From positions 265,267 to 329,266 of the forward strand of contig JASFYN010000001.1 of NCBI GenBank assembly GCA_030055615.1: a stretch of 64,000 nucleotides of DNA, given 5' to 3'. The notes under the pieces were generated by a model. That model ran no database searches, was not told the origin of the DNA, and saw nothing but the letters and a program-made list of their open reading frames with translations. Of this stretch, positions 37,210 through 58,399 are shown one piece after another. Numbering within the stretch: position 1 is the first letter of the stretch; each line of letters begins with the position of its first letter. Origin of the DNA: Methanothermobacter sp. Its GTDB lineage: Archaea > Methanobacteriota > Methanobacteria > Methanobacteriales > DSM-23052. A program made the position numbers and the translations under genes.

Positions 37210-37686
37210 TTACTCTCCACTTTTTATACCAGTTATATCAACTACATCTACGAGTTTCCAAACATAGGATCTTTCCATTTTAACAAGACATGCCAGTGGA
37301 TCTTCAGGGGAATGGCCCAAGGCTTTAAGCACCTTCCTAGAAAGGCCTTTTTCCTTGATCAGGTCTGTGAACATTCTTCTAACCCTATTCTTCTCATCCT
37401 GGTCTGTTACTTCGACTATTTGCCCTTGTAGTGTCACGAATTTGTAACTTGAAAGGTCTGGTTCGAATTCTTCTATCTCCACTGCAACATAGGGGTTTTT
37501 CTTTAAGAGTTCGATTTTCCGTCCATATTTAGTTGAAAGGAAGTACAAGTGTTCCCCATCAAACACATAAAGGAATGGTGCTATATAGGGGTATTCTCCA
37601 CTGAAGGCTATTCTACTTATAAAATTCTCGCTTATAAACTCGTCGTATTCTTCCTTTGACATTAAGGGTATTTTAACAATCCCCAT
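37210..37686 (-). CDS. Pyridoxamine 5'-phosphate oxidase-fold flavoprotein
   Basis: A 158-residue split-barrel protein. It has the order IPLMSKEEYDEFISENFISRIAFSG, PYIAPFLYVFDGEHLYFLSTKYGRKIELLKKNPYVAVEIEE, then VTLQGQIVEV, which is the PNPOx-like fold that binds FMN or F420. No clear substrate. The start is ATG 37686, preceded by GGAGGT; a second ATG at 37701 is inside the ribosome site. It follows the MBL-rhodanese gene after 16 bases and probably shares its transcript. Confidence 0.82.
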   Translation of the reverse strand: MGIVKIPLMSKEEYDEFISENFISRIAFSGEYPYIAPFLYVFDGEHLYFLSTKYGRKIELLKKNPYVAVEIEEFEPDLSSYKFVTLQGQIVEVTDQDEKNRVRRMFTDLIKEKGLSRKVLKALGHSPEDPLACLVKMERSYVWKLVDVVDITGIKSGE

Positions 37687-37702
37687 TATTATAACCTCCA
37701 TA

Positions 37703-39048
37703 CTATTTTTTGATGGGATAACCTCTTTTTATCCAAGAAGTTATCCCCCCAAGGAGAGTTCTAACATTCTTGTAACCGTTTATTTTGAGCAGACTCGCTG
37801 CCATGGTCGACTTATAACCTGAATCACAGTAAACAACCAAATTGTCAGGTATGTTGTCCAGGTTTTCTGGGATTTCACCGACCCAGCAATGCTCGGAACC
37901 TTCTATATGATATTTTTCACGATCTGCATGTTTCCTAACATCTAGGATGAAGAAGTCCGCACCTTTGTCAATCTGGGATTTAAGCTGATCTACAGTCCAT
38001 GCTTCCAGTTTGTCACATTTCATCCCATTAATGTACCAATTGGGGAAGCCACCCTGGAGGTAACCATACTTGTTGTCATATCCTAGTCTTATAAGGGATC
38101 TTCTCACAAGCTCGTTGGATCCGTTTTCATCTACTATGATTATCGGATCCTCATAATCTAGGAAGTATCCTGCGAATGCTGGGAAACCATCGCTCCAAAT
38201 GTTCAAACTTCCTGGTATATGACCTCCAGAGAAGCTTGTGGGATTCCTAACATCGACCAATTGGGCCCCTTCTTTGATCATGTCATTGAATTCTTGGACA
38301 TTTAATGGTTCTAGGTAGGGGTTTTCTAATGGCGCTCCTTCTAGGTTGTTTTTTTCCATCCTTTTAAAGTAGGGTGGCATGTAAACTTTTTCATTCCTTT
38401 TATGTTCTATGAAGGTTTCCTTGTCCAATTTTAGCATGGGATTTGTTAACTTTTCATATCCTATGGTTGTAAGGTCTTGGTCTCTTATCTGGGCGCCGCA
38501 GACCGAACCAGCGGTGTGCGCAGGACATACTATAACATGATCACCCAATGGTAATATTTTTTATGCAGGCTTTCGTAGAGCAAGCTTGCAGTTTCTGGTA
38601 TTTTTTCTTCCCCAAAAAAGTCGACCCGGCCAACTTCTCCCGGGAATAGCACATCACCAACAAATACCATCAATGGGGTTTTTCCATCATCTTCTACGAC
38701 TATGGATATGCTCTCATAGGTGTGGCCTGGTGTTTCAAGGATCTCAAGCTCAAGAAGTCCTAGTTTGAAAACGTCACCTTCAATTACACCGGTCCCATAT
38801 TTGAAGTCTAGTTTGTCTCCATGGAGTATTTCGGCATCAACATATTTTGTAAGTTCCAATGATCCTATGGTGTAATCTTCGTTCCTATGTGTTTCGAAGA
38901 TGTAGCGTATGCTCATATCATTTTCTCTTGCAAGGTCAAGGTAGATTTCAACATCTCTACGAGGGTCTATGACCGCAGCTTCCCCATCCGACCCTATAAA
39001 ATAGGAATTATGGGATATTCCTTCCGACTTTACTATCTCAAGTAACAA
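37703..39048 (-). pseudogene. MBL-fold/rhodanese sulfurtransferase, broken by a one-base frameshift
   Basis: The first part (39048 to about 38560) is the metallo-beta-lactamase domain of a persulfide-dioxygenase-like protein, with DPRRDVEIYLDLAREND and ETPGHTYESISIVV. The canonical THxHxDH motif is degenerate here: FETHRNEDYTIG. The second part (38548 to 37703) carries PAHTAGSVCG and two rhodanese domains, the first with VDVRNPTSFSGGHIPG and no active Cys, the second ending in VVYCDSGYKSTMAASLL with the active cysteine. The frame changes at a T6 run (38557-38562); one more base would give LHKKILPLGDHVIVCPAH, the normal join. A single protein of about 448 residues is expected. Confidence 0.82.
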
Positions 39049-39075: not shown

Positions 39076-41072
39076 CTATCTTGTCTTGAGGGTGTTTTGT
39101 GGAAATTTTAACCAGATTTTAACTCCTTTTCCTCCTTTTATTTTTATTTCGCCATTGAGTTGTTTGGTGAGGGCATACATCAGTTTAATGCCTAATGTTT
39201 CACATTCTTCTGGTCTGAAATTTTCTGGGAATCCAACCCCATCGTCTTTGATGATAATATTGATGTGACCGTCTTTTTTGCATGCTTTTATGGTTACACT
39301 CCCTTCACCTTCTGGGAATGCATGTTTCAAGGCATTTGTCAAAGCCTCGTTTATTATGAGTCCAGTGGGGATGGCCTGGTTTATGTCGAGTTTTATATCC
39401 TGGATTTGACATTTAAACTCAACTTTCTGGGTTGGATATGTTGCTTTCAACTCTAATATCATATCCTTTAGGTAATCTTTGAAGTCTATGAATGATAGAT
39501 CCTCTGAATGGTATAGTTTTTCATGGGCTCGTGCTATTGCCTTTATCCTATTGATTATTTCCTGTATTTGCCCTTTATCCTTTGTCATGTGTTTTTTCTG
39601 GAGGTTTATGAGACTTATTATAACCTGGAGGTTGTTTTTAACCCGGTGATGTAACTCTGCAAGCATTGCATTTTTTTCTTTGAGACTTTTTTCGAGGGAT
39701 TTTTCATATTCCTTGATATTGGTTATGTCACGTAATGATATGAGGATACATTCCTCCCCTTCCCAGTATGTTTTGGCTGTTCTTAATTCAGCATACCTTA
39801 TACTCCCATCAGCTGCCAAAATTTCGATTTCCTGGACCATGCTGGGTTTCAATGGTTTTCCTATAATCTTCCCCGATATACCCTCTGTTTCCAAGCCAAA
39901 ATATTCTATAGCTTGTTGGTTGGCATAGTATACCCTACCCTCCTTGTTAATGATGAATATACTCTCTGGACTGTTTTCAACTATGTTAAGGAAGTTTTTC
40001 ATCGACTTCTCTAATTTTTCTTCGAATTTTTTCTTCTCAGTAATATCTGACATGATGACGCCTATACCCTTTTCAGTGGTGGTGGGGATTTCAATTGGAA
40101 ATTTTTGTATGTAATAATGTCGGCCGTTGATTTCCCTCTCAAAGCTAATGTCATCGCCTTTTAATGGTACTTCATCTGAGTATTCTAGGATTGTGGCGGT
40201 TTCTTCATCGAATATCTCATAGGCTGTTTTTCCCAATATCTCTGATCTTCTTTTACCTGCGAATTTGCAAAAGCTATTATTCACGAGAACATACCTTGAA
40301 CTAGAATCCTTAACCACGATAATAAAAGGAGAATGTTCAATGAAACTCTTATAAGTTCTTGTAAACCTAGTGATGAACTCTAGGAAATCTTTTTCACGTT
40401 TCAGGTTCTTGAGCCAATTTTCAACTTCTACTTGAGCCGGATCCTTCTCAAGGAGAGTTTTGGGTGGTATGTAATAAAAGTTTCTATAAACCTTGCCACC
40501 CCATATTATGATAGGATGGGTTAGGATGATGCTTTTGAGGGTTTCTGGTTCAAAGGCAGATTTTTTGTATTGGCATATTGCCACGCACTTGAACTTTGGA
40601 AAGAATTTGTTAAGTTTCGCTTCATATTCTATCAGCCTTTCACTCCCAGGCACTCTTTTCAGAGCCCAGGTCATCTCTCCTGTGACGCGTAAGCCGGTGT
40701 ATCCTTCTTTTATGGCCTTTTCTGTTTCCCTTTTTAGGATTTTTATCATTTTATCAGGGTTGAAGTAGCCTTCTTTGGTGTATGTTTCATCTGCGTATAG
40801 TATTTGGAATTGTTTTAGGTTGTTTGGGTTGATTCCTTGTTCTTTGAGGTGTTTTTTTATTGTGTTGGGTTTGTGTTGGTCTGTTATGTAAATGCATTTT
40901 TCATTGTTTTTGAGCCCGTCTATGATGAATGTATGATGATCTGTTCCCATTCTTCTTCTTTTTCGTAGATTAGGCAAATGTGGTCATGAATTTTTATTGT
41001 TTCATCCAAGTTTTTGTTTCTAATAATCTGGGTTTGTCTTTTAGGGTTGTGAGTTTTTATTGTTTCATTCAA
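39076..41072 (-). pseudogene. MEDS-PAS-PAS histidine kinase, broken by a one-base frameshift
   Basis: A sensor kinase without membrane helices. In order: a MEDS/DcmR-like sensory domain (HDHICLIYEKEEEWEQIIIH, then IIDGLKNNEKCIYITDQH), two PAS domains, the HisKA_2-type phosphoacceptor ELHHRVKNNLQVIISLINLQ and a HATPase with INEALTNALKHAF and KDDGVGFPENF. The MEDS domain is split by a frameshift at 40928-40929; one extra T gives IIHFIIDGL. The start is probably TTG 41072, preceded by AGGTG and overlapping the kaiB stop. It lies in the kaiC-kaiB operon; no response regulator is close by. About 665 residues when repaired. Confidence 0.82.
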
Positions 41073-41331
41073 GGGGGACACCTAGGAATTTTAGTAGGGC
41101 TTTTTCATCGGATAGGTCTCCTATGATTCTCCTCTTGGGTTTGGGTTTTATCCTGTCAAGGGTTGGTATTGCGATAATATGATTTTTCCGGGCCAATTCC
41201 GGGTTTTTGGTGATGTCGATGATTTCAGTGTTGATGTTTATTCTTTTTTTGATCTTTTGCAATTTTTTGATGGCTGCTTCTGCGTGGGGGTTTTTGGGGG
41301 TTATATATAATCTGAGGATTATTTCGTTCAA
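41065..41331 (-). CDS. KaiB-domain protein
   Basis: An 88-residue thioredoxin-like protein beginning NEIILRLYITPKNPHAEAAIKKLQ and ending IIDITKNPELARKNHIIAIPTLDR-IKPKPKRRIIG. This is the KaiB pattern (beta-alpha-beta start, then the I-A-x-P-T-L segment). The best start is TTG 41331, which overlaps the kaiC stop (TTGA) and has GGGGGGTGA seven bases upstream. It lies between kaiC and a MEDS-PAS histidine kinase, all coupled by overlaps. KaiB partners of KaiC act in clocks of cyanobacteria; in archaea the role is unknown. Confidence 0.88.
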   Translation of the reverse strand: MNEIILRLYITPKNPHAEAAIKKLQKIKKRININTEIIDITKNPELARKNHIIAIPTLDRIKPKPKRRIIGDLSDEKALLKFLGVPLE

Positions 41332-42734
41332 ATAGTTTTCACCCCCCATTTTTTTATTTTTATGCCCTTTTTGGTTAGTTGGATTTCGTGAGGTCGTGTG
41401 GAGTGTTCCATGCCACGACTTTTAAGTACTCTTAGGATTTTGAGATATTCTCCACCCCGTTCTGTCTGGTCTAGTATGATCCAGGTGTCTATGAGGGATG
41501 ATAGGCGCATCTCTGTGGTTGTTAATGGCCTGCCACCCATTGTAAGGTATGTTAGGATGGAAGTTATCTTCTTATTCTTCAGAAAGTCTGTGAATCTTAT
41601 GAAAAGGTCTTTCACGGCGAAACCGGCCTCTGTGAGCGCTGATATGGGATCTATTATAACATGGTCTGGTCTGAAATCGCGTACAATATCTTGCATGCTT
41701 GTCAGGTGGGCTTCCAAGCATAGTGTGGTGGGTCTTTCGGCGTGTATAAGGAGTTTTCCTTCTTCAATGAATTTTTTGAGGTTTATCCCAACAGATTTCA
41801 TGTTACGGATTATCTGGTCTGTGGGCTCCTCATTTGCGAAGAAAAGGCATCTTTCACCCCTATTGCAGGCTTCCTGGGCGAATGTGGATACGAAACTAGT
41901 CTTACCAGTACCGGTGGTCCCTGAGATTAATACAGACGACCCTTGGTAAAATCCTCCTCCAAGTATGTTGTCAAGTTCTGGGATGCCACTAGATACGATT
42001 TTGCGACTTACGCTATAATCAAGTTTGAGAGAGGTTATAGGGAACAATGATAAACCCTTAGAATTTATAAGCATTGGATACTCATTCAGACCATGTTCTG
42101 AACCCCTATATTTTCGTATAGTCATATACCTTGTACCTATATAATCCTTGTACTGGTATTTAAGATGGATGACGCAATCTGATATGTAATCTTCAAGTCC
42201 ATGGGTCGCCCCACCATAGGGGTTTTCTCCACTAGTGAATATGCTTGTAAGACCCTTGCTATTTAACCAGTTTATGAGCCTGATGAGCTCCTCTCTCATA
42301 TCTTTTTTAAAGTGGGATAGTAAAGTGTCAACCTTGTCGATCACTATCCTCTTAGCATTTACACGTTTTATAGCATCCTCTAGACGGACTAGAAGAGCAT
42401 CCAAACTATAATCACCACTTTCAACCCCAAAAATGGAAGATAAATCCTCTATAAACATCTTATCTTCCTGGATAAGATCCTCAAGAAGGTTATCCTCTAA
42501 TCTGAAATTTTCTATGAGATTGTCCTTGCTCTCTTCAAAGGTTACCATGACACCAGGCTCATCATAAAGACTGGCACCGTTAATCAAGAATTGCATGGCA
42601 AAGAAAGTTTTACCAGTCCCAGGACCACCATAAACTAGAGTATTACGACCCCGGGGCAGGCCACCCCTTGTTATACTATCAACACCCCAGATACCAGTCG
42701 GGGCCTTCTCAACTGGCCTAAAAGATCCCCTCAT
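41328..42734 (-). CDS. KaiC-like double-domain ATPase
   Basis: A 468-residue protein with two RecA/KaiC domains. Domain I: Walker A GGPGTGKT at 36-43 and paired Glu at 67-68 in TFEES. Domain II: SGTTGTGKT at 271-279 and NEE at 301-303. The segment at 407-417 has TEMRLSSLIDT, so the place of the KaiC phosphosites (Ser-Thr) is occupied by Ser412-Ser413. Both domains look active. The start is ATG 42734 with GGGTGAG upstream. It is the first gene of kaiC-kaiB-histidine kinase, so it may pass a state or signal to the kinase. Confidence 0.9.
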   Translation of the reverse strand: MRGSFRPVEKAPTGIWGVDSITRGGLPRGRNTLVYGGPGTGKTFFAMQFLINGASLYDEPGVMVTFEESKDNLIENFRLEDNLLEDLIQEDKMFIEDLSSIFGVESGDYSLDALLVRLEDAIKRVNAKRIVIDKVDTLLSHFKKDMREELIRLINWLNSKGLTSIFTSGENPYGGATHGLEDYISDCVIHLKYQYKDYIGTRYMTIRKYRGSEHGLNEYPMLINSKGLSLFPITSLKLDYSVSRKIVSSGIPELDNILGGGFYQGSSVLISGTTGTGKTSFVSTFAQEACNRGERCLFFANEEPTDQIIRNMKSVGINLKKFIEEGKLLIHAERPTTLCLEAHLTSMQDIVRDFRPDHVIIDPISALTEAGFAVKDLFIRFTDFLKNKKITSILTYLTMGGRPLTTTEMRLSSLIDTWIILDQTERGGEYLKILRVLKSRGMEHSTRPHEIQLTKKGIKIKKWGVKTI

Positions 42735-42920
42735 AAACTCACCCCCCACCATGGTGAGAATCCAATATTATTATTACTATTAGATTATAATAAATTTTCT
42801 ATAAACAATAAAACCTTGACCAGGATCACATCAAATAGTCAAAAAAAGGCAAAGGATTCGACAAAAAAAGAGAGATTTTGACAAGAAAAAAGCTCCAAAA
42901 AAAATTGGGTGGAAAAGGAC

Positions 42921-43859
42921 ATGGATTACATCATCGAAACAGAAAAAATAACCAAAAAGTATGATGATTTCACAGCAGTAGACAAGGTAGATTTGAAAGT
43001 GCCAGAGGAGGACATCTACGCGATACTAGGACCTAACGGGGCTGGTAAAACAACATTAATATCAATGTTATGCACGATACTCAGGCCAACAAGTGGCACA
43101 GCCAAAGTGAACGGATACGATATCATCAGAGAACCTGAAAAGGTAAGAGCATCCATTGGCATAGTATTCCAATCCAGGGCGCTTGATGACATGCTAACAG
43201 GAAGAGAACACCTAGAAATGCACGCAGCACTATACGGAGTCCCCAAGGAGATAAGAGAGGAAAGGATACAGGAAGTGCTAGAACTCATAGCCCTCGGTGA
43301 AAAAGCCGACGAATATGTCAAAACATATTCAGGTGGCATGAAACGCCGACTAGAAATAGGAAGAGGACTCATACACCACCCCAAGGTTTTATTCCTGGAT
43401 GAGCCAACATTAGGCCTAGACCCCCAGACACGCGAAAGCATCTGGAAATACATAAAACAACTCAACAAAGAAGAAAAAGTAACAGTACTGCTCACAACAC
43501 ATTACATGGAAGAAGCAGACAAACTCTGCGACCAAGTAGCAATAATGAACCGCGGAAAAATCATAAAAGCAGACACACCAACAAAACTCAAAAGAGAACT
43601 AAAAGCAGACACAATAAAAGTAAAAGTAGAAAGACCCAAGGAATTTGCAGAGAAAATCCAAGGATTACCCAGGGTGAAAGAAGCCTATAAAACCCAAGAG
43701 ACAGTAAAATTGTTAGTAGAGAGAGGTGAAAACCTCATACCAGAAATAGTGAACTTCGCAACACAAGAAAACTTCAAAATAAGATCAGTAGAACTAGAAC
43801 ATCCAACACTAGAAGATGTATTCATAAAATACACAGGAAACAAAATAACAGAAACATAA
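42921..43859 (+). CDS. ABC transporter ATP-binding protein, DrrA-like
   Basis: A 312-residue ATPase. Walker A is LGPNGAGKTTL, signature YSGGMKRRLEIGRGL, Walker B VLFLDEPTLGLDP, and the H-loop LLTTHYMEEADK. The C-terminal ~90 residues are the extension seen in DrrA-type and other multidrug/lipid export ATPases. It pairs with the ABC-2 permease that follows. I chose ATG 42921; a GTG at 42909 in frame is also possible. The 5' side is an AT-rich gap of about 185 bases with the divergent kaiC promoter. Confidence 0.9.
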   Translation: MDYIIETEKITKKYDDFTAVDKVDLKVPEEDIYAILGPNGAGKTTLISMLCTILRPTSGTAKVNGYDIIREPEKVRASIGIVFQSRALDDMLTGREHLEMHAALYGVPKEIREERIQEVLELIALGEKADEYVKTYSGGMKRRLEIGRGLIHHPKVLFLDEPTLGLDPQTRESIWKYIKQLNKEEKVTVLLTTHYMEEADKLCDQVAIMNRGKIIKADTPTKLKRELKADTIKVKVERPKEFAEKIQGLPRVKEAYKTQETVKLLVERGENLIPEIVNFATQENFKIRSVELEHPTLEDVFIKYTGNKITET

Positions 43860-43899
43860 AACCCTGAAAAATATTCTGTAAATTATTAGAGGGGAAAAG

Positions 43900-44664
43900 A
43901 TGGGAGAAATAGAAGGAATATACACCATATGGTTAAGAGAAATGAAAAGATTCCTACGCTACAGATCAAGAATAGTCACCTCAATCGTAACACCACTACT
44001 ATGGCTTGTAATATTCGGAACAGGACTCGGAGCATCAATAAGATTCGCAGCGGTCCCAGGAGGCTACAGAGCATTCATCTACCCAGGCATAATAGGCCAA
44101 ACCATACTATTCACAAGCATATTTTCTGGTGTTTCAGTAATAATAGACAGACAATACGGCTTCCTCAAAGAGATTCTAGTGGCACCTATCTCAAGACCAT
44201 CAATAGTCCTTGGAAAAGCCCTAGGTATAAGCACGGCCTCAATGATACAAACAGCCATCCTACTATTATTATCGTTCCTTGTAGGGATTACAATGACACC
44301 AGCTTGTTTCATCGTAACCATGATACTCTCACTCATAATCTCAATGGGTTTTGGAGGGCTGGGACTCATGATAGCAGCCTTCACAGACAGCATGGAAGGA
44401 TTCAACCTCATAATGAGCTTCATAGTATTACCAATATTCCTACTAAGCGGAGCCCTATTCCCCATCACTGGCCTGCCAACATGGTTAAAAAATGCTGTTT
44501 ATATAAACCCTTTAACTTATGGTGTGGACGCACTACGCTATACTATACTTAGAAGGTCTGTGCTCCCTCTTGAGATTAATTTTGTAGTTATCAGTATATT
44601 TGCGGTTATAATGGTTTTATTAGCTGCTTTCATGTTTAACGTGAAAGAACAGAGTTTAATGTAG
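43900..44664 (+). CDS. ABC-2 type transporter permease
   Basis: A 254-residue membrane protein with about six hydrophobic helices. The N-terminal IYTIWLREMKRFLRYRSRIVTSIV-TPLLWLVIFGTGLG and the later FLKEILVAPISRPSIVLGKALG are typical of ABC-2 export permeases such as DrrB. A GGGG-AAAAG site precedes the ATG. The partner ATPase is 40 bases upstream. The exported substrate is not known. After it comes a 352-base AT-rich gap before the cas operon. Confidence 0.88.
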   Translation: MGEIEGIYTIWLREMKRFLRYRSRIVTSIVTPLLWLVIFGTGLGASIRFAAVPGGYRAFIYPGIIGQTILFTSIFSGVSVIIDRQYGFLKEILVAPISRPSIVLGKALGISTASMIQTAILLLLSFLVGITMTPACFIVTMILSLIISMGFGGLGLMIAAFTDSMEGFNLIMSFIVLPIFLLSGALFPITGLPTWLKNAVYINPLTYGVDALRYTILRRSVLPLEINFVVISIFAVIMVLLAAFMFNVKEQSLM

Positions 44665-45016: not shown

Positions 45017-45748
45017 ATTAGATTACATATTCTACTTAAAAGTGAGGAAAAGCCACTTAAAATACCCTATAATTACAATTACGCTATAAATTCCATGATA
45101 TATTATAAAATAGCCGATAAAGACCTCGCAATGGAATTGCACAAGTCAGATGATTATAAATTTTTCACATTTTCTGAATTCTATGTCATGAAAAGAAGGG
45201 CCCTTAAAGATTATTTATTAGCAGAAAATGGGGAGATAGGACTTTACATATCATCACCAAATGAGGAATTCATAAAAAACCTTGTAGAAGGATTCTTAAC
45301 CAATCCCCATGTAACTTTTTTAAATAAGAAAATGTGGGTAGAAAAAGTCGCACTTTTAAGAAAACCTAAAATAAAGAAGAGAATGAAGTTCAGGACACTT
45401 TCCCCAATCATTGTACGGACACTCAAAGAAAAAAACGGGAAATTGAAGCAGTGGGATCTTAACCCAGCAGATTTGAAATTCTATGAGAATTTGCAAAAGA
45501 ATCTCATCAATAAGTATACAGCATTTCATGGAGAATATAAAGGAGACGAATACATGAAAATATTTCCAGAAACTCGGTCGATAAAGCGGAAGAGGATCAA
45601 AGTACCTAAGGAGGGGGCTGAAACATATCATAGAGCATATCATATGAGATTCGAAATAGAAGCCGATCCTAGGCTTCTTGAGTTTGCATATGATTGTGGA
45701 TTAGGTGAAAAAAACAGTATGGGATTTGGGATGGTGGCGAAGGTATGA
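45017..45748 (+). CDS. cas6: Cas6 CRISPR RNA endonuclease, apparent ATT start
   Basis: A 243-residue RAMP protein that cuts pre-crRNA in the repeat. The C-terminal glycine-rich loop CGLGEKNSMGFGMV is clear, and the N-terminal part reads RLHILLKSEEKPLKIPYNYN-YAINSMIYYKIAD, the normal Cas6 beginning. The first in-frame ATG is at 45095, within NSMIYYK, so starting there would remove the first beta strand. In-frame TGA at 45011 limits the frame. The codon eight bases after GGAGG is ATT at 45017. This is the first gene of a nine-gene type I-B operon; its stop overlaps the start of cas8b. Confidence 0.88.
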   Translation: MRLHILLKSEEKPLKIPYNYNYAINSMIYYKIADKDLAMELHKSDDYKFFTFSEFYVMKRRALKDYLLAENGEIGLYISSPNEEFIKNLVEGFLTNPHVTFLNKKMWVEKVALLRKPKIKKRMKFRTLSPIIVRTLKEKNGKLKQWDLNPADLKFYENLQKNLINKYTAFHGEYKGDEYMKIFPETRSIKRKRIKVPKEGAETYHRAYHMRFEIEADPRLLEFAYDCGLGEKNSMGFGMVAKV

Positions 45749-47586
45749 TAAAAGCTTCTGACAAATTAAAATCAGCAAATGAGCCTGTTTTACAATTTAC
45801 TGGCAATTGGCTTATAGATTTAGGAATTTTAGGATTTGTCAACCTTTTAGAGGAAATCTACAACTGGAATCTCCAAGAAACACAAAAAAGGATAAAAGAA
45901 AATGAAAAAGTCGTATATTATGGGCTCTTCCCATTTGCATATATTTGCTCCGAAATAAAAAGGAAAAATTCAAAAATTCCCAAGGGACTTATCGATGATT
46001 TTGCGAATGAAATTTACAAGAAAGAATTTAAATCAGAAAAGGAAATATTCGACTTTACATGGGAAAATTATATAACTAAAGCGGCTACAGAATTATGGAA
46101 AAAAAAGATAATAGAAAGAGCAATAAATAAAAGAAAAAATGAAAAGTTTGTAAAAGGCACTCCAAAGATTTTAAAAAAGAAAATTGAAAAAGTGGAAATT
46201 CTTGGAAAAAAAATTATTAAAGAAAATAAAGAGGAAATAAAAAAACTCCTTGAAAAATCGGGAAGATTTCAGAAATTAGAATATGAAGACATTAAAAGTA
46301 TTCAGAGCCACTCCAAGAAAGAATTTAAGAAATATGGAGAAAGGTTCCTAGAAAATGCTGTAAAGCTTAAAGAGATAATGGATGACGTTGATGAATATTT
46401 GAGCAATTTGTGGGCTAGAGAAGTCGTGGGTAATAATAATATTCTGGAAGAGCGTCTCAAATTTTATAGGATACCCATTGATAATAAATATTATAAAAAT
46501 TTTTTGTTTTTTAATTATTCAGTAAATCATAAAGGGCAAAAAGAAAAATTCTATTACACAATAGCTTCAGAAATAAACCGAGAAGAAATTCTCATTAATT
46601 TGGACAAAACCATAAACAAGTTTTTAGAATCCTATGACAAAGCATCTAACATTTATTATACACCTTTAAAAACTGAATACCTTATAGATATTGTGCCTTA
46701 TTTATTTGTATATTTATTGTGTTTTGATCGTGCATTTGAAGATTATAAAAATATTGGCCATATTGTATTTTATTCCAATGACGTTTTCATTACATATGAA
46801 ATTAATAAGCGCTTAAAGCTCAGAAAGTCAAAAAGTGAAGAGGATCTAAATAGCATTTTTAGGGACACATGGCAAACGGTTATTGATACTATAATAGAAA
46901 TGGAGTCATGGTGGGTTCTTGAAAACCTTTACCTCATAAAGTATACTGATTTGAAAAGCGACGCTCAACGCTTCATTAATGTTGAATATATGGGTATCTC
47001 CAGATTACAAGCTACTATATTATTAGATGATGATATCAGGAGAAACTTGAATCAAAGAGTCCAAGTAGATAAAAATGAATACAGATGGCTCTTTGAGGAA
47101 TTCATCAAAAATAGGCCTTTAACATCTATCATACTGGATCACTTGATTTTGAGATTGAACCAGAGAACGAAACAACGAAAAGTCCAACCTTTACTTTATG
47201 CTCTTGCATTAGAGGCGGAATTATCGTCAGAACATGATTTTATTCATCTCTTTGAAGATCCGATGTCATTGAAACTTAAATTAGATGATTTAGTTCCAAG
47301 GATAAAAAAGAGCCGTGAAAGAATGGATATGGCTAGAAAAAATATACGAAGATTATTATCTGAGGATATAAGAGAAAATAAAGTACCACACTTATTTTCC
47401 ATTATAAGACGACAAAATAAATATTCATTTGTAAACTCCATTCTAAAGCTTATAATTGCAAATCCAGAAAAAGATAAAAAGCTAATCAAGCATTTAAATG
47501 ATTATATTTTCCATCAGATAGTTCAAAATGATAAGGCATGGATTCATTACGCTCTCGGGCTTTTCACAGGATTTATAGGAGGTTGA
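45745..47586 (+). CDS. cas8b: Cas8b, large subunit of type I-B Cascade
   Basis: A 613-residue lysine- and glutamate-rich protein. It begins with LQFTGNWLIDLGILGFVNLLEEIYN, the Cas8b N-terminal pattern (MTH1090/TM1802 type) with a conserved W-x-x-D-x-G motif. The C-terminal half has mostly helical sequence. It is expected to recognise the PAM and hold the target DNA in Cascade. It starts in an ATGA overlap with cas6. There is no strong sequence motif, so the call rests on the N-terminal pattern, size and position between cas6 and cas7. Confidence 0.85.
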   Translation: MIKASDKLKSANEPVLQFTGNWLIDLGILGFVNLLEEIYNWNLQETQKRIKENEKVVYYGLFPFAYICSEIKRKNSKIPKGLIDDFANEIYKKEFKSEKEIFDFTWENYITKAATELWKKKIIERAINKRKNEKFVKGTPKILKKKIEKVEILGKKIIKENKEEIKKLLEKSGRFQKLEYEDIKSIQSHSKKEFKKYGERFLENAVKLKEIMDDVDEYLSNLWAREVVGNNNILEERLKFYRIPIDNKYYKNFLFFNYSVNHKGQKEKFYYTIASEINREEILINLDKTINKFLESYDKASNIYYTPLKTEYLIDIVPYLFVYLLCFDRAFEDYKNIGHIVFYSNDVFITYEINKRLKLRKSKSEEDLNSIFRDTWQTVIDTIIEMESWWVLENLYLIKYTDLKSDAQRFINVEYMGISRLQATILLDDDIRRNLNQRVQVDKNEYRWLFEEFIKNRPLTSIILDHLILRLNQRTKQRKVQPLLYALALEAELSSEHDFIHLFEDPMSLKLKLDDLVPRIKKSRERMDMARKNIRRLLSEDIRENKVPHLFSIIRRQNKYSFVNSILKLIIANPEKDKKLIKHLNDYIFHQIVQNDKAWIHYALGLFTGFIGG

Positions 47587-47589
47587 AAA

Positions 47590-47904
47590 ATGGAATATGT
47601 TAAAAAACCTATCTTAATGAAGGATTATGATGAAATAAAAATATATACAAAAAAAGCTTTTGAGAATATTGGCTCTGAAAGTTATAGGCAAAGATTAGTT
47701 TATAGGTTACTTAACACAGCTACAGTGAACAATCAAAAAGATTTCTTTTCATCATTGTTGAGAGCTCTGAATTCCCGTAAAGATGATGAGAACGTTAAAA
47801 GACTTTCCAGAAAACTTGAATGGTTGTTCCCTCTTTCACCTGCTAATTTCGAGAAAGTCGCATATTCAATTATAATGGGTATAATGGCCGTACGAGGTGA
47901 ATAA
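47590..47904 (+). CDS. Small helical protein of type I-B Cascade, likely Cas11-like
   Basis: A 104-residue, probably all-helical basic protein (IYTKKAFENIGSESYRQRLV near its start, LEWLFPLSPANFEKVAYSII near its end). It stands between cas8b and cas7. By size and position it is a stand-alone small subunit (Cas11), which in many type I-B systems is instead made from an internal start in cas8. Sequence identity alone would not identify it. The ribosome site GGAGGTTGAAAA precedes the ATG. Confidence 0.6.
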   Translation: MEYVKKPILMKDYDEIKIYTKKAFENIGSESYRQRLVYRLLNTATVNNQKDFFSSLLRALNSRKDDENVKRLSRKLEWLFPLSPANFEKVAYSIIMGIMAVRGE

Positions 47905-47905
47905 A

Positions 47906-49075
47906 ATGGGAAAATATATAGTTTTAGATATAGTATTCCACGGGAATTCTTTGAATTATGATCAAGGGAGTGGAAATTATCAAGAATTAAAAAAGATAAC
48001 AAAATGGGATGGTAGACAGTACACACTAGTGAGTAGGTATGCTTTAAGGTACAGTTTACTTGAAACAGCGCAAAAAGCAAATCTATTCAAGTTAACTGAA
48101 GCAGAAAATCTCATAGAGGCCGGTAAAGGTGAAAATAAAGTTATACAACCTGCAACAGAATTTCTATTAACTGGAGACATATTAAATTATCCCGAATTTG
48201 ACCTTTTTGGGTATTTGATAACGGACACTTCTCCCCAAAATTTCAGAGTCGCCCCTGTTAAAATTTCTCATGCCGTCTCTATGACACCTTTTATGTATGA
48301 TGCACATTTCAATGCCAATATCGGCCTTGCCAATAGAATGCGGAAAATGCACGGTGAAATGAAGCCCAATCCATTCACAATGGAAGAACACGAAACATAC
48401 TACCAGTATACAGTAGTGGTAGACATTGGAAATATTGGAGAAATGGAAGTTTACATAAAACCGAATACAGATGTTACTATTCAAAATGAAAAATTCAAAG
48501 TGAAAAACATAGAGAAAATAAACGCCTTAAACGACGAAGAAAAATTATCAATAAAATTAAAGAAAGGAAGAAATGAAAAAGACCTTATGCAATCAGATAT
48601 CGTGGAATTATCCGAGTTCACAGAATTCAACGACGTTTACTTGGTCAAATATAAACTAAAAGACAATAAAATGATCAAAGAAAGAATATTGAGCCTCATA
48701 AAAGCTTTAATGAATTTAAAACGTAGTATAAAAGGGAGAGAGGAAGATTTATCACCTAAACTCCTCATTGCTGGCGTATATAATGATGGTCCATACAAAA
48801 CGTACAGGGATAAGATAGTCTTGGTCGATGAATATGTAGAAGAAGAATATGATGAAATAGAAGAGACAAAGACAGAAAATGGACGCATATTAAAAGTAAA
48901 ACATAAAAGTAGCAAAACAAGAAAGCCTCTATTCAAAATCAAAGGAATTAAAGCTGAAATAACTTCATTAGATGAAGATAAAGTGTTATCATTTGTAGAG
49001 CGGATATTCCATAAAGAAGATGAATACAAGGACGTGAAAGTTTTCAAAGATGAAAGTATAGAAGTGAAGATTTAA
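47906..49075 (+). CDS. cas7: Cas7, crRNA backbone subunit of type I-B Cascade
   Basis: A 389-residue RAMP protein (Csh2/DevR family). The N-terminal IVLDIVFHGNSLNYDQGSGN and RYALRYSLLETAQKANLF fit Cas7b, as do AVSMTPFMYDAHFNANIGLANRM and the SPKLLIAGVYNDGPYKTYRDK region. In Cascade six or so copies bind the crRNA spacer. I start it at ATG 47906, preceded by GAGGTGAATA, rather than the open ATG at 47897. Its length is above the common ~300-residue size because of a charged insertion near residues 165-250. Confidence 0.9.
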   Translation: MGKYIVLDIVFHGNSLNYDQGSGNYQELKKITKWDGRQYTLVSRYALRYSLLETAQKANLFKLTEAENLIEAGKGENKVIQPATEFLLTGDILNYPEFDLFGYLITDTSPQNFRVAPVKISHAVSMTPFMYDAHFNANIGLANRMRKMHGEMKPNPFTMEEHETYYQYTVVVDIGNIGEMEVYIKPNTDVTIQNEKFKVKNIEKINALNDEEKLSIKLKKGRNEKDLMQSDIVELSEFTEFNDVYLVKYKLKDNKMIKERILSLIKALMNLKRSIKGREEDLSPKLLIAGVYNDGPYKTYRDKIVLVDEYVEEEYDEIEETKTENGRILKVKHKSSKTRKPLFKIKGIKAEITSLDEDKVLSFVERIFHKEDEYKDVKVFKDESIEVKI

Positions 49076-49096
49076 ATTTTAGTCGAGGCGCTTCTA

Positions 49097-49909
49097 ATGG
49101 ATGACATAATAATCTTAGAGATATTCCAACCATTTGCACAATACAGAAACCCTTTTACATTTGATCATGCCCAAAGTTATCCATTACCACCCAAGTCAAC
49201 GATCATTGGAATGCTGCAGAACGCCCTTGGAAGATACTATGATAAAAAATTATACAATTTGAAAGTAAGCATCCATGGTTTATTTGAAACTAAATTCTGG
49301 AATTATCAAAATTTAATAATGGGGGAAGTTTCTCTAAAAAGGTATAATGGGCGTTTAAAATTATGGAACGAAGGATATCCACTTTACAGTGAAAATAAAA
49401 AATCACAGAGGAGGCCAAGATTTCAAGAGGAGCTTTTCAATGGACATTATTACATTTTCATCAAAGGCGAAAAGGATATGCTTTTAGAAATAGAGGAGTC
49501 ACTTTCGAAGCCTTCTAAGCTCCTTTATCTTGGGAGAAGTGAAGACCTCATTTTCATAAGGAAAATACACAAGGACTTTGATTTCGAGGAAAAAAAGGTC
49601 AAAAGGAACATATGGTTCACACAACCTACATATATCAGGTTAAGATATGATGGTAGAAATTTTCCATTGAAAAATATGAAGTTCCCTGTCTATTCGATTC
49701 CTGTAAAAGTTTTATTCAAAAATGATGGTCAGATTATTTCAAACAAGGCTGAATTATCAGATTCTACACAGAGAGTGCCAACTTTCGAAACTGTAATTTA
49801 TACTGGCACAGACCAAGTAATATATTTAAAGGAGGAATTAATCATTGAAAATTATCATATCACTGATGATCTAGTTTTTAAGATACCTAAGGAGTTTGGG
49901 TGGTTGTAA
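49097..49909 (+). CDS. cas5: Cas5, crRNA 5'-handle subunit
   Basis: A 270-residue RAMP protein of the Cas5b/h group. It has IILEIFQPFAQYRNPFTFDHAQSYPLPPKSTIIGMLQNALG, the classical Cas5 start with the P-S-T-I-G-M-L motif, and GRSEDLIFI in the middle. It caps the 5' end of crRNA and holds Cas8b. The ribosome site GAGGCG lies upstream. The stop overlaps the start codon of cas3. Confidence 0.93.
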   Translation: MDDIIILEIFQPFAQYRNPFTFDHAQSYPLPPKSTIIGMLQNALGRYYDKKLYNLKVSIHGLFETKFWNYQNLIMGEVSLKRYNGRLKLWNEGYPLYSENKKSQRRPRFQEELFNGHYYIFIKGEKDMLLEIEESLSKPSKLLYLGRSEDLIFIRKIHKDFDFEEKKVKRNIWFTQPTYIRLRYDGRNFPLKNMKFPVYSIPVKVLFKNDGQIISNKAELSDSTQRVPTFETVIYTGTDQVIYLKEELIIENYHITDDLVFKIPKEFGWL

Positions 49910-52446
49910 TGGAATTAATCGAGACTTTAAGGGCTAAATCCAGCGACCAGGAAAATTATCTTTTAAAGGATCATTTGAAAGAAACTGTAAATAGGATCGT
50001 TGCAATATATAACTTTTTCGAAGAAAATAGGGGGAATTTTACATATGATTTAGACAGGGTTTTATTTGAAAAGCTTGTAGTCGCCGCGATAATCCATGAT
50101 CTTGGAAAGATCGACTATAATTTCCAGAGAAAAGTTTTAAAGTCAGAAGAAATAAAAGAAAAAAATTGGATTGAATTAAAGGAATTTTTCAAACCGTTAA
50201 TGGATCTTCAGAGTCCTCTATCTCTACGTCATGAGATACTTTCAAGTATATGGAGTACTTTCCTTATAGGTAATGATAAATTAGACAAAAAAATTAGGAC
50301 TGCAATCCTTTTACATCATTATAATGAATATTTTGCAACGGAACGAGACTTGATGGAGATCATATACACTTATGAAGACCAAATAAAATCATACCTTGAA
50401 TTTATAATGGAAAGACGCGAATTACTAGAGGATTTTTTAGCCGAATTACTAGGATATATAAAGGGAAGCCTAGAAGATAGCATAGTTTCATCTGCAATTG
50501 ATTATTTGAAGGAACAGGCAGACTTCAAGAAAGCCAAGGTATTATTAGCGAAAATTAAAGGCCATGATGATGATATTTCCGATTTTGCAAGATTTTACAA
50601 CCCTAGGTTGGAAGATCATGACTTTTTAGTTTTATTGGGACTTCTAAGAAGATCAGATTATTCAGCAAGTGCTAATGTACCTATAGAATCATATACTCCA
50701 AGAATATTTCTCGATATTGAAGATAACCTTGAAAAAAGGATTCCAAGAGAAAAATTATGGCAAGAGGTACTCCTAGATAAAATAGATCCAGGAGATTCTT
50801 TGGTTCTTGTGGCTCCAACAGGTTCTGGTAAGACTGAATTTGCCATACTTTGGGCTGCAAAAAACAACAGAAAATTAATATATACTTTACCATTGCGGGT
50901 TGCGTTAAACGATCTCTTCATAAGATTCAGAAACAGAGAAAATGGTTATTTCAACGCTTCTAATGTTGATATTCTCCATTCAACTGCTTTTATAGAATAC
51001 ATGGATGAGGAAAAAAGGGGAAAGAGTATAGATCTTGATAAAATGTTGACTTCCGCAAGGCTACTCGCATCACCCGTATTATTAACGACACCAGATCAAG
51101 TCTTTTTAACTTCACTTAATTATTATGGGTCTGATAAGATAATATCCATTTACCCCTTTTCTTCGTTCATTATCGATGAAGTGCAAACATATAATGAAGA
51201 AATGGCCGCTATCATCATTAAAACAGTTAATATTATCAGGGAGTTGGGTGGTAAAGTTATGATAATGACTGCAACTTTTCCTCCTTATTTTGAAAAATTC
51301 TTTAAAGATTTTAACTTTGTAGATGTTAAAGATCATGGACTCCACGTAAAGAATCTAGATTTAAAGAGGCACAAAATAAGGGTCATAGATAAACCCCTTT
51401 TTGTCGAAGGGGACAATGGTTTAGAAATTTACGAAGAAAGTGAAGATGAAATAAAGAAAATTTTAAAAGCTAACGATAAAAACTTTTTTATAGTAGTTAA
51501 TAATGTTGGAAAGGCCATCCGTTTATATGAGATATTAAATGAAGATTATCCTAATGTATATCTTCTTCATTCGCGGATTCTCGAAGTTGAAAAGGATAGA
51601 AGATTAAAGGAGATAAAAAGGAAAGTGGAAAGTGAAGAAAAGGTAATAGTTGTATCAACACAGATAATAGAAGCTTCTGTTGACCTTGATTTTGACATGA
51701 TGATTACAGAGATATCCACAATTGACAGTCAAATCCAGCGTTGGGGAAGAATCCACAGAAATAGAAACACAGATTATCAAGAAGATGAACCTAACATAGT
51801 AATATTCACAGGAAAAGTAGAAAATGGCGATTTAAAAATCGACAATGGAACTATGCGCATATATGACAAGAAAGTAGTTGAAAAAACAAGAGAAGTACTC
51901 AAAGAACATGAAGGTGAAACATTTGATTATACTTTTGAGAGAAATCTCATATCAGAAGTATTTAAAAGGAAAATTGAAGGCTTAACATTAAAAAAGCATT
52001 ATGAAAACAAAATAGAGAACATACTCAGAGATCTTGAATATTTCACGGTAGAAAAAAAGAGTCAAGCCCAATTATTATTTAGAAAAATTGCAGGAATAAA
52101 AATAATAATACCTGATATCGTAATTCAAGATTCTAATAATAAAATTCAAGAAATTTTTGGAGAATGTATAAAAGAAGGTGTTAAAACTTGGAAAAAAATC
52201 ATAGAAAAAATAGAAGAAAAGACAGGCAAAAAAGTTGACATATGGTCACTTAAAAAATTACTATACGAATATTCGATAAATATGCCGGTCTATTACGAAG
52301 AAAAAAGCGACTTTTGGAGTAAAACGACTGGAGAATTTAAAGGATTTTACATATGGGGCAATATAAACAAAAATGAACTTGATCAGATAAAAGAGCTTGG
52401 CTTAGATAGCATATTTAAAGACACAAACTCCACAAATATATTATAA
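49909..52446 (+). CDS. cas3: Cas3, HD nuclease-helicase
   Basis: An 845-residue single protein with both activities. The HD nuclease domain has AAIIHDLGKIDYNFQ near residue 60 and LRHEILSSIW, ILLHHYNEYF. The SF2 helicase has Walker A APTGSGKTEFA near 305, box II DEVQTYNEE, MTATFPPYF, and motif VI STIDSQIQRWGRIHRN. It degrades DNA after Cascade recognition. The start is ATG 49909, overlapping the cas5 stop (TAATG). No fusion or split is seen; the domains are complete. Confidence 0.95.
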   Translation: MELIETLRAKSSDQENYLLKDHLKETVNRIVAIYNFFEENRGNFTYDLDRVLFEKLVVAAIIHDLGKIDYNFQRKVLKSEEIKEKNWIELKEFFKPLMDLQSPLSLRHEILSSIWSTFLIGNDKLDKKIRTAILLHHYNEYFATERDLMEIIYTYEDQIKSYLEFIMERRELLEDFLAELLGYIKGSLEDSIVSSAIDYLKEQADFKKAKVLLAKIKGHDDDISDFARFYNPRLEDHDFLVLLGLLRRSDYSASANVPIESYTPRIFLDIEDNLEKRIPREKLWQEVLLDKIDPGDSLVLVAPTGSGKTEFAILWAAKNNRKLIYTLPLRVALNDLFIRFRNRENGYFNASNVDILHSTAFIEYMDEEKRGKSIDLDKMLTSARLLASPVLLTTPDQVFLTSLNYYGSDKIISIYPFSSFIIDEVQTYNEEMAAIIIKTVNIIRELGGKVMIMTATFPPYFEKFFKDFNFVDVKDHGLHVKNLDLKRHKIRVIDKPLFVEGDNGLEIYEESEDEIKKILKANDKNFFIVVNNVGKAIRLYEILNEDYPNVYLLHSRILEVEKDRRLKEIKRKVESEEKVIVVSTQIIEASVDLDFDMMITEISTIDSQIQRWGRIHRNRNTDYQEDEPNIVIFTGKVENGDLKIDNGTMRIYDKKVVEKTREVLKEHEGETFDYTFERNLISEVFKRKIEGLTLKKHYENKIENILRDLEYFTVEKKSQAQLLFRKIAGIKIIIPDIVIQDSNNKIQEIFGECIKEGVKTWKKIIEKIEEKTGKKVDIWSLKKLLYEYSINMPVYYEEKSDFWSKTTGEFKGFYIWGNINKNELDQIKELGLDSIFKDTNSTNIL

Positions 52447-52453
52447 AGATTTT

Positions 52454-52987
52454 ATGTGGTCTGAGATGATTTCAGATGCAGAAAAAAAGCTTTTAATACG
52501 TGGAACGCAAGTCAATTACTATTTCGTATGCAGGACTAAACTTTGGCTTTTCTCTCACCATATACAAATGGAGCATGAATCCGACATTGTTGAATTGGGT
52601 AAATTATTACATGATGAAACCTATAAACGGGAGGAAAAGAGTTTAATACTTGATGATCTTATAAGCGCAGACTTTGTGAGAAAAGGAAAACTTCTTGAAG
52701 TGCATGAAGTTAAAAAAAGCGATAAAATTGAGGAAGCTCACTTTTTCCAATTACTCTATTATCTCTATTATTTAAAAAAGGAAAAAGGAATAGAGGAAAT
52801 TAGAGGTTTTATAGATTATCCGAAACTCCGGAAAAAGAAAGAGATAAGATTAACCCCTGATAATGAAAAAAGATTGAAGAAAGTCCTTGAAGATATAGAT
52901 ACGGTAGTCAGGGGCGATTTTCCACGACCTCAAAAGAAGAGTAGGATATGTAGAAGTTGTGCCTATCTTGAATTTTGTTGGGCATAA
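52454..52987 (+). CDS. cas4: Cas4, spacer-processing exonuclease
   Basis: A 177-residue Cas4 of the RecB-nuclease fold. The N-terminal cysteine is in [15 protein letters not shown], the metal and catalytic part covers [40 protein letters not shown], and the three C-terminal cysteines are in [12 protein letters not shown]. These four bind a Fe-S cluster. The start can be ATG 52454 or ATG 52466. It trims prespacers and fixes PAM orientation for Cas1-Cas2. Confidence 0.92.
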
Positions 52988-52998
52988 AAATTTTTACG

Positions 52999-53967
52999 AT
53001 GACTAGGAAGAATTATTATATACTTACAGATGGTATCTTGAAAAGGAAAGAAAACACATTATATTTCATAAACAAGGATGGGAAACGCCCACTCCCAATA
53101 CATTCTATATATTCAATATACGCATATAGCTCGCTTAGCATTTCTTCCCAGGTTGTAAATTTGTTGTCAAAAGAAGGCATACCGATACACTTTTTTAACA
53201 GGTACGGATTTTATTCTGGAAGTTTTTATCCAAGAGAGACACTATTATCTGGAGATCTTGTGATAAAACAAGCAAAACATTTTATAGATAATGAGAAAAG
53301 GTTAAAACTTGCCTCTGATTTTGTTAAAGGCGCCATATTTAACATGAAACGAGTCTTATCCTATTATGGTTTGGATAATAACATGGATACTCTCTTGGAA
53401 GACCTTAAATCATGTAAGAAGATAACTGAGATAATGAACGTTGAAGGAAGAGCTAGAGCAGACTATTATAAATTATTGGATGAAATACTCCCTGAAGGTT
53501 TTAGGATAGGTGAAAGGACTCGTAGACCACCCGAGAATATGGCAAATGCACTACTTAGTTTTGGCAACTCTCTATTATATTCAACTATCATAAGTGAAAT
53601 CTATAATACACAGTTAAATCCTACCATATCATATTTGCATGAACCATTCGAAAGGAGATATTCACTTGCACTTGATATTAGTGAATTATTCAAGCCTATA
53701 ATTGTTGATCGCTTAATTTTGTATTTAATTAAGAAGAATATGATAGATGAAACAGACTTTGAAAAGGATTTAAATTATTCTTTACTCAACGAAAATGGAA
53801 AAAGAAAATTTGTAACAGAGTATGATAAAAGGCTTAAAAAAACGATTAAACACAGGAAAATCGGGAGAAAAGTCTCATATAAACGTTTAATACGATTAGA
53901 ATGCTACAAATTGATAAAACATTTGCTAGGGAAAGAAAAGTATAAACCATTCATAAGCTGGTGGTAA
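52999..53967 (+). CDS. cas1: Cas1, spacer integrase
   Basis: A 322-residue Cas1 of the I-B type. It starts [18 protein letters not shown] and contains [23 protein letters not shown], then [14 protein letters not shown] (catalytic Glu), [43 protein letters not shown] (His and Asp) and the C-terminal KYKPFISWW. The start is probably ATG 52999, as the frame is open to 52975 within cas4. It integrates new spacers into the leader end of the array with Cas2. Confidence 0.95.
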
Positions 53968-54331: not shown

Positions 54332-54684
54332 TAGAATCCTTTATTTTTTATTTTAAAAAATTTTTAGTTTTCTAATTTGCCTTTAACTAAATGTTGCTTT
54401 GTCGTTTATCACCCTCTTTTTTCATTTAATTTTTGTAACATTTTGTTATTTTATTCCCCTTTTAACCTTTACAAAGATATAGCAACTTTTTTATATATTT
54501 ATCCAATTTTAGTTGGCTTTCATGTAATTAAATTCGTTCTACTATTTGAATTTCATTTTTTGACTTTTTTGACAAAGTCGTCTATCTTTATAAATGGGTT
54601 GCATTATTAAGGATCGCCGACACAAACCATTAAATAGAAGCAACAAGAAAAAGAATAAAACAAAAACAAGAAAAAAACCGCCCT
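54332..54684 (+). promoter_or_regulatory. CRISPR leader with predicted promoter
   Basis: A 353-base T-rich leader between cas2 and the first repeat. TTTATAAA at 54587-54594 is a TATA-like element, putting the pre-crRNA start about 70 bases before the array. Upstream at 54562-54579, GACTTT-TTTGAC-AAAGTC is an inverted repeat that could bind a protein. Leader at the cas2 end and a degenerate repeat at the far end both show that the array is read on the plus strand. No gene is supported here. Confidence 0.7.
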
Positions 54685-56128
54685 ATTAAAATCAGACCAA
54701 AATGGGATTGAAATCTCTTTTGAGTATATGAGTTTGAGCGTTCCAGTCCCATTAAAATCAGACCAAAATGGGATTGAAATCAACAATAGAAAGTATGGAG
54801 AGAAGGCTGATATGATAGAATGGATTAAAATCAGACCAAAATGGGATTGAAATGGTGTGTAGCTTATTTTGTCGTCAGGTATGCTGCCAAATTAAAATCA
54901 GACCAAAATGGGATTGAAATTGGAGACCATGATAGCTGCTTCATCGTCCATTAACGATTAAAATCAGACCAAAATGGGATTGAAATCTTGTAGACCTTGC
55001 CAAAGAAGTTCTCGTGAAGATTAATTAAAATCAGACCAAAATGGGATTGAAATTCTAAACTTGATCGACAAGGGTATTGAACTAATATTATATTAAAATC
55101 AGACCAAAATGGGATTGAAATATCATTGACAAGGGAGAACATGGAAGCGTGTACCCATTAAAATCAGACCAAAATGGGATTGAAATACACGCAACATAAT
55201 ATAACTATCATAAGAGTTTTTATTAAAATCAGACCAAAATGGGATTGAAATTTAATCTCCTTGTGGTTTGGGGTGTTAGGTGTCTGTTATTAAAATCAGA
55301 CCAAAATGGGATTGAAATGATAAACTCAAGATACTTGTATAGTGTCCTCTTCTCATTAAAATCAGACCAAAATGGGATTGAAATAAGGACAAACCCCAAC
55401 AGTAAAATGCACGGGAAATATAAATTAAAATCAGACCAAAATGGGATTGAAATATGGAACTCTGAAAAAGGTAAATTCATCACACTATGATTAAAATCAG
55501 ACCAAAATGGGATTGAAATTTTACTTTCTCCCAAGCCCCTTTTAGCCAGTTAACAACGTATTAAAATCAGACCAAAATGGGATTGAAATCAGATTATCGA
55601 CGAGGAACCAGTATTCTCATAAAGGAGATTAAAATCAGACCAAAATGGGATTGAAATCCTGTTATGGCATTCCATGCTCCCTGTGCTGCTCCTTATTAAA
55701 ATCAGACCAAAATGGGATTGAAATTCTATTATAGGCGAAATTGGCTGGCGCTCCACATGCTGATTAAAATCAGACCAAAATGGGATTGAAATCTGCTTAT
55801 GGCTGAGAATGCGCTTGTAGCCCCAGAATTAAAATCAGACCAAAATGGGATTGAAATAAGGTTTAGCATGCGCGCGAAGCAGCCCTCCTCGACTTTGTAT
55901 TAAAATCAGACCAAAATGGGATTGAAATCATAGGATGGGGAGACTATTATACGATAGCGAATCACCATTAAAATCAGACCAAAATGGGATTGAAATTCCC
56001 AGCACTCCCAGCTAGTGCAAACGCTGATCTGAATTAAAATCAGACCAAAATGGGATTGAAATTAGTACAAATGGGCACAGAAGAAACTAGAACGCAAAGT
56101 TAAAATTAGACCAAAATGGGATTTTGAG
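54685..56128 (+). CRISPR. Type I-B CRISPR array, 22 repeats and 21 spacers
   Basis: The 30-base repeat begins ATTAAAATCAGACC, continues AAAATGGG and ends ATTGAAAT. Repeats start at 54685, 54751, 54824, 54891, 54957, 55024, 55092, 55157, 55222, 55289, 55355, 55424, 55490, 55560, 55628, 55695, 55763, 55828, 55899, 55967, 56033 and 56099. Copies 1-21 look identical. The last (56099-56128) is degenerate at both ends, beginning GTTAAAATTAGACC and ending ATTTTGAG, which marks the old end. Spacers are 35-43 bases long. The 3' ATTGAAAT is the likely crRNA 5' handle. Spacer targets could not be searched. Confidence 0.98.
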
Positions 56129-58241: not shown

Positions 58242-58399
58242 AACAAAGGGTGCTAATATAGTTCTCATATTTTTTTGCAATTCAGTCTTCATAAAGATTA
58301 TTTTTTTGACTTTTTTATTATAATGGTTGAAATAGTCATGTTTATATTATATTGTAAACATAATATATGGTGTAATATATTTTTTTGGTGGTGGTTTTA

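Follow-up and report, generated by a model that had tools for sequence, protein, structure and literature searches.

The kai operons of Rhodopseudomonas palustris and Rhodobacter (Cereibacter) sphaeroides, for which the name 'kaiC-B-PAS/HK operon' is in print (PMC4794148), are the described systems closest to the locus analysed here. Their KaiBC system is regarded as an hourglass or proto-clock (PMC10076222, PMC4794148), and for R. sphaeroides its response to ATP:ADP as well as the action of KaiB have been measured (PMC10076222). Homologues of KaiB and KaiC from Methanothermobacter are listed in the available portion of Schmelling et al. 2017, which also reports a KaiB1-like protein in thermophilic Methanothermobacter (PMC5520375); these proteins probably belong to the same family as those presented here, and in that portion of the article we found no mention of a MEDS-kinase operon, its decay or its mosaicism. 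MEDS (PF14417) is known from histidine kinases of methanogens (PMC5847659, PMC11784639) and, more generally, as a sensor domain widespread among archaeal kinases, which has been called an inactivated KaiC-like domain (PMC5847659). We found no literature description of MEDS in combination with a kaiC/kaiB kinase operon.

The present operon lies on the minus strand of a 64,000-nt stretch of a Methanothermobacter sp. contig, referred to as the window, which is part of a 1.49-Mb genome (G000) that contains mcrA, i.e. the host is a methanogen, as a first-pass annotation made from the sequence letters had assumed. The genes follow each other in the order kaiC, kaiB and MEDS-PAS-PAS-HisKA_2 kinase gene (Table 1). 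The double-domain KaiC claimed in that annotation is borne out by two PF06745 stretches (370 bits in a profile search), a match to NF006799 (584.5 bits), both P-loops (GGPGTGKT, aa 42-49, and SGTTGTGKT, aa 277-285, in the numbering of the 474-aa ORF) and both Glu pairs (in FEES, aa 72-75, and NEEP, aa 307-310), and the KaiB-domain protein by PF07689 (E=1.3e-20, 73.4 bits) and PDB entry 1r5p (E=4.5e-14). Both short overlaps were likewise found where they had been placed: the kaiB start TTG 41331 and the kaiC stop share TTGA, and kaiB and the kinase gene, read from TTG 41072, have 8 bp in common. All three starts, ATG 42734, TTG 41331 and TTG 41072, are backed by a preceding GGTGA or AGGTG motif. 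The kaiC ORF may also be read from ATG 42752, but the better ribosome site belongs to ATG 42734, which sits 5 nt behind GGTGA, so that the kaiC start given earlier is correct. KaiA had been described as absent, and a search of the genome with PF07688 indeed gave no match, the S. elongatus KaiA used as positive control being detected.

Elsewhere in the window a CRISPR array of about 22 repeats (ATTAAAATCAGACCAAAATGGGATTGAAAT) occupies positions 54680-56123, adjoined by a putative Cas gene cluster (45095-53967). An ARPP-1 domain gene (58385-59378, plus strand) is split near 58945, where a run of A is one base longer than in the relative G002.

Table 1. Features of the kai locus (window coordinates) with the evidence for each.
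Feature	Coordinates	Strand	Evidence
kaiC, tandem ATPase domains CI and CII, Ser-Ser phosphosite, no C-terminal tail	41328..42734	-	PF06745 x2, NF006799, PDB alignments, motifs
kaiB, TTG start, GGTGA upstream	41065..41331	-	PF07689, 1r5p
Kinase gene, 5' fragment, TTG start, 49 codons, first part of MEDS	40926..41072	-	stop codon 40923-40925
Approximate site of 1-bp deletion relative to G002 and G003	40926..40934	-	DNA alignment: ATACCATTC there, ATACATTC here
Main kinase ORF in a different frame: rest of MEDS, PAS, PAS, HisKA_2 (HHRVKNNLQ), HATPase_c	39076..40977	-	profiles, motifs
Intergenic region between kaiC and divergent ABC-transporter operon	42735..42908	.	
ABC-transporter operon, divergent, neighbour conserved in relatives	42909-44664	+	
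Metallo-beta-lactamase/rhodanese gene, downstream of kinase, conserved neighbour	37703..39048	-	split by 1-bp deletion near 38577
Pyridoxamine-phosphate-oxidase-like flavoprotein, conserved neighbour	37210..37701	-	

Among solved structures (PDB) the R. sphaeroides protein comes nearest (400 bits, E 1e-118), ahead of the KaiCs of cyanobacteria with scores near 300 bits. The serines S418 and S419 within LSSLIDTW (aa 417-424 of the 474-aa ORF) align with S413 and S414 of R. sphaeroides KaiC, which are Glu-Glu in the phosphomimetic structure 8FWI, and W419 is conserved in the same alignment. The Ser-Ser phosphosite had thus been read correctly, but it is normal rather than unusual, since the R. 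sphaeroides pair aligns with it (PMC10076222) and two serines are the rule in KaiC2 proteins (PMC5520375). The alignment reaches residue 480 of S. elongatus KaiC and the methanogen protein stops 7 residues later; as the A-loop of S. elongatus comprises residues 488-497 (PMC6378743), KaiC terminates where the A-loop would start. The R. sphaeroides protein carries an extended A-loop and a coiled coil instead (PMC10076222). This C-terminal extension, including the coiled coil that gives dodecamers, is missing in KaiC here, which ends at aa 474, and in G002 and G144. The missing coiled coil may not bar membership in the wider kind of system, as KaiBC systems without it are mentioned (PMC10076222), whereas the kinetics may differ because R. 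sphaeroides KaiC relies on its extended A-loop and coiled coil for exchange and regulation.

The third gene had been presented as a MEDS-PAS-PAS histidine kinase; the domains are all there, but the single intact frame is not, a 1-bp deletion having been overlooked. The frame that starts at TTG 41072 encodes the MEDS residues HICLIYEKEEEWEQIII and meets a stop at 40923-40925 after 49 codons, still inside MEDS, and the remainder of the kinase (TFIIDGL...) is a 633-aa ORF in another frame, which matches only positions 19-161 of the MEDS profile as against the full 1-161 in G002 and G144. According to the DNA alignment one base is missing near 40929 (ATACCATTC in relatives, ATACATTC here), and the kinase region forms a single open frame in G002, G003, G143 and G144. 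Relatives carry the PAS and HWE/HisKA_2 kinase directly downstream of kaiB, whereas the window has these domains in a broken frame, i.e. the operon is real but its kinase gene is not open, and the original observation is partly confirmed. The metallo-beta-lactamase/rhodanese gene also lacks one base near 38577 and is one open frame in G002, G003 and G144. Across 160 kb of this contig of G000 no more than 4 of 138 orthologues are disrupted, so that two frameshifts within 2.4 kb suggest an excess over background. The metallo-beta-lactamase/rhodanese gene is disrupted in G148 and G150, too. A frameshift candidate at 25850 was rejected as it lies outside coding sequence.

It is quite possible that these frameshifts are assembly errors and that this organism has an intact, active operon, as all events concern single bases, the third one lies in an A-run (about 58945), the kinase frame has no stops over the 633 codons beyond the shift, and draft assemblies may carry single-base indel mistakes, the rate elsewhere in G000 being at most 4 of 138 orthologues. 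However, that same rate makes two events in 2.4 kb conspicuous, the kinase event is a change from CC to C with no long homopolymer, and the large deletions in the same operon of relatives are beyond what indel mistakes can explain. Any real mutation must be young, given that the kinase ORF past the shift is free of stops, and with its frame broken the output arm has probably been lost or truncated. We consider it very unlikely that the kinase is read across the shift by programmed frameshifting or internal reinitiation. In-frame starts are nearby in the main ORF (TTG 40977, then ATG), but by eye no slippery heptamer is obvious at the site, the relatives do without a shift, and the MEDS domain of a reinitiation product would miss its first 18 positions.

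Whole or frameshifted kaiC is present in 9 of the 151 genomes of the order, all from two genera (g1 and g19), and KaiB above the cut-off is found in the same two genera, as a full domain in 8 genomes and as a fragment in one. The first-pass annotation had named the lack of a conserved neighbourhood as a refuting outcome; a gene-order survey in relatives did not refute it. Both genera share a neighbourhood that includes ABC transporter, kaiC, kaiB, kinase, lactamase-rhodanese gene, flavoprotein and UbiA, among others, suggesting that the operon is probably older than their split. Another match, on a contig of a 'Bacillota' MAG (L002), probably stems from a mis-binned methanogen contig, as its KaiC is nearly identical to that of G144 and has the same ABC neighbours.

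Within these relatives the operon is eroding. Eleven genomes could be assessed; G001 was left out and a deletion reading for it rejected, because the contig ends within its kinase match, and an apparent internal TGA in kaiC of G003 was discarded, as it lies upstream of the start of an intact gene. All three genes are intact in G002, G003, G143 and G144 (4/11), and the other 7/11 carry frameshifts or deletions. Apart from the kinase frameshift in G000, kaiC has single-base shifts at three different positions in G145, G146 and G147, the operon of G146 being additionally deleted through kaiB and kinase. In G148 a deletion has spared kaiC and kaiB but removed the kinase from residue 70 or so, extending into the following gene, G149 lacks kaiC and most of kaiB and has a stop in the kinase, and G150 lacks kaiC and kaiB and retains a kinase remnant. 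Altogether, 13 of 33 operon genes are disrupted as compared with 3 of 76 flanking genes (Fisher p=7e-6, which is indicative only, as neither genes hit by the same deletion nor related genomes are independent samples). The flanking genes of G148 and G149 differ by a dS of about 0.02 or less, and yet different genes have been lost; that G148 has kaiC and kaiB without the kinase shows that the parts are not strictly co-dependent. Purifying selection is seen in kaiC (dN/dS about 0.1) and in the kinase (0.2-0.3).

Besides being lost, the operon is exchanged. G002 and G003 (L035 and L034) are 95-100% identical over window-equivalent positions of about 43500-38540 and mostly 75-90% identical outside, a tract that reflects a recent homologous replacement spanning the whole operon. 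In the g19 genomes G143, G145 and G147 dS is mostly 0.17-0.40 in the flanks, 0.30-0.44 in kaiC and 0.31-0.66 in the kinase core, whereas it rises to 1.1-2.8 in kaiB, MEDS, PAS1 and PAS2, the change sitting at the border between PAS2 and HisKA_2. Trees of the kinase core and of KaiC place G143 with G145 and G147, in conflict with the kaiB-plus-sensor tree, which places it with G144 (support 0.99). Operon copies are thus repeatedly damaged and swapped piecewise in relatives, which speaks for an only conditional advantage, and the intact, partly deleted and exchanged copies in close relatives constitute a natural deletion series, in which the role and the dispensability of the module are directly testable.

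The mosaic also leads to a specific hypothesis on which proteins touch, namely that KaiB is functionally matched to the sensor half of the kinase. kaiB and MEDS-PAS-PAS would be swapped between species as a matched unit, while KaiC and the kinase core would stay. As the kaiB-sensor block is contiguous, physical linkage alone could explain the joint exchange. We further speculate, and regard this as improbable, that KaiB has both KaiC and the MEDS-PAS half as partners, kaiB-MEDS-PAS-PAS acting as a specificity cassette in which MEDS imitates KaiC and so binds KaiB, an arrangement that mirrors SasA. In comparisons of MEDS with KaiC, hhalign of the profile with KaiC CI returned a probability of 0.1 on a shallow alignment, the match to PF06745 was weak (E=0.004), and a single-sequence AlphaFold (AF2) model (pLDDT 42) was too poor for a structure search.

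Based on the observed gene content, order, motifs, synteny, disruptions and mosaic structure, we think that the locus is probably an archaeal KaiBC 'hourglass' operon, i.e. a dispensable, eroding ATP/ADP energy-state switch that would feed a histidine kinase. R. sphaeroides biochemistry is the model for the autokinase activity, the binding of KaiB, the dependence on ATP:ADP and the coupling to the kinase. KaiC would form a double ring, act as an ATPase and phosphorylate itself on two neighbouring serines of CII, and, as it ends where the A-loop would start, it should load ATP and autophosphorylate without KaiA. KaiB would bind the ADP (post-hydrolysis) form of KaiC and drive dephosphorylation, so that the KaiC/KaiB state would track the ATP:ADP ratio. 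The cytoplasmic MEDS-PAS-PAS-HisKA_2 kinase, whose coupling to KaiC/KaiB we infer from the operon alone, may read this state together with a ligand or redox input of its own and might hand its phosphate to one of the only two receiver proteins of the genome (REC-PAS-GAF and REC-PAS-MetOD1). As Pfam recognises no DNA-binding domain in either of them, the output may be protein-protein. Just 1 bp behind the gene for REC-PAS-MetOD1 (L092:2463-4428, contig 3 of the same genome) lies that of a single-domain KaiC-like ATPase. As a methanogen lives without light, such a module would signal the supply of energy or H2 and not the time of day. The earlier interpretation, a KaiBC module of hourglass or metabolite type with its own kinase output, is therefore partly supported: homology to R. 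sphaeroides KaiC and the shared gene order (PMC4794148) make it the best-supported reading, but the frameshift and the repeated loss had been overlooked.

Alternatively, KaiC/KaiB and the MEDS kinase might be functionally separate, the kinase being an independent ligand sensor that shares the operon by chance. This would agree with G148, which has kaiC-kaiB without the kinase, with G149, which has most of the kinase without kaiC, and with the general abundance of MEDS in archaeal kinases (PMC5847659). We regard it as rather unlikely, because the overlapping gene order is conserved in two genera and recurs with a related type of kinase in alphaproteobacteria, and because kaiB and the sensor half travel together. 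The hourglass reading would mean that the KaiBC-kinase architecture exists in its simplest form in methanogens, anaerobes whose living does not depend on light, and such a light-independent host fits energy-charge sensing as one role of KaiBC.

With the cyanobacterial KaiABC-SasA clock the methanogen operon shares a double-ATPase KaiC, KaiB and an output histidine kinase, but it differs in the absence of KaiA, of a SasA-type KaiB-like sensor and of the A-loop and in its low equivalog scores. The first-pass annotation had drawn an analogy to SasA, which turned out to be loose: a histidine kinase does adjoin the kai genes, but profile searches found no N-terminal KaiB-like domain in it, only MEDS-PAS-PAS-HisKA_2. 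It is extremely unlikely that this methanogen runs a true circadian clock with an output of the SasA type; the adjoining kaiC, kaiB and histidine kinase genes would suit it, yet KaiA and a KaiB-like kinase domain are absent, the proteins score far below the equivalog cut-offs (circ_KaiC, 306 vs 546 bits; circ_KaiB, 55.6 vs 145.3 bits) and the operon is repeatedly lost in relatives. The MEDS histidine kinases of methanogens have the cytoplasmic kinase and the MEDS sensor in common with the present one, which in addition is coupled to kaiC/kaiB. The closest counterpart is the kaiC-kaiB-PAS/HK operon of R. sphaeroides and R. palustris, with the same gene order, Ser-Ser, no KaiA and a HWE/HisKA_2-type kinase with PAS domains, its KaiC core being about 45% and its KaiB about 42% identical. 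The annotations of plasmids from Cereibacter, Falsirhodobacter and Sinorhizobium show an identical kaiC-kaiB-kinase order, as does that of Pararhizobium, which has one more kaiB. The kinases of Cereibacter and Falsirhodobacter are PAS-HWE/HisKA_2 proteins, whereas those of the methanogens are MEDS-PAS-PAS-HisKA_2, i.e. an N-terminal MEDS domain has been added as compared with the R. sphaeroides and R. palustris kinase. Conversely, neither the A-loop tail nor the coiled-coil extension of the 570-aa R. sphaeroides type is present in the methanogen KaiC (474 aa), and, unlike the R. sphaeroides and R. palustris operon, the methanogen operon resides in an anaerobic archaeal host, in which it is eroding.
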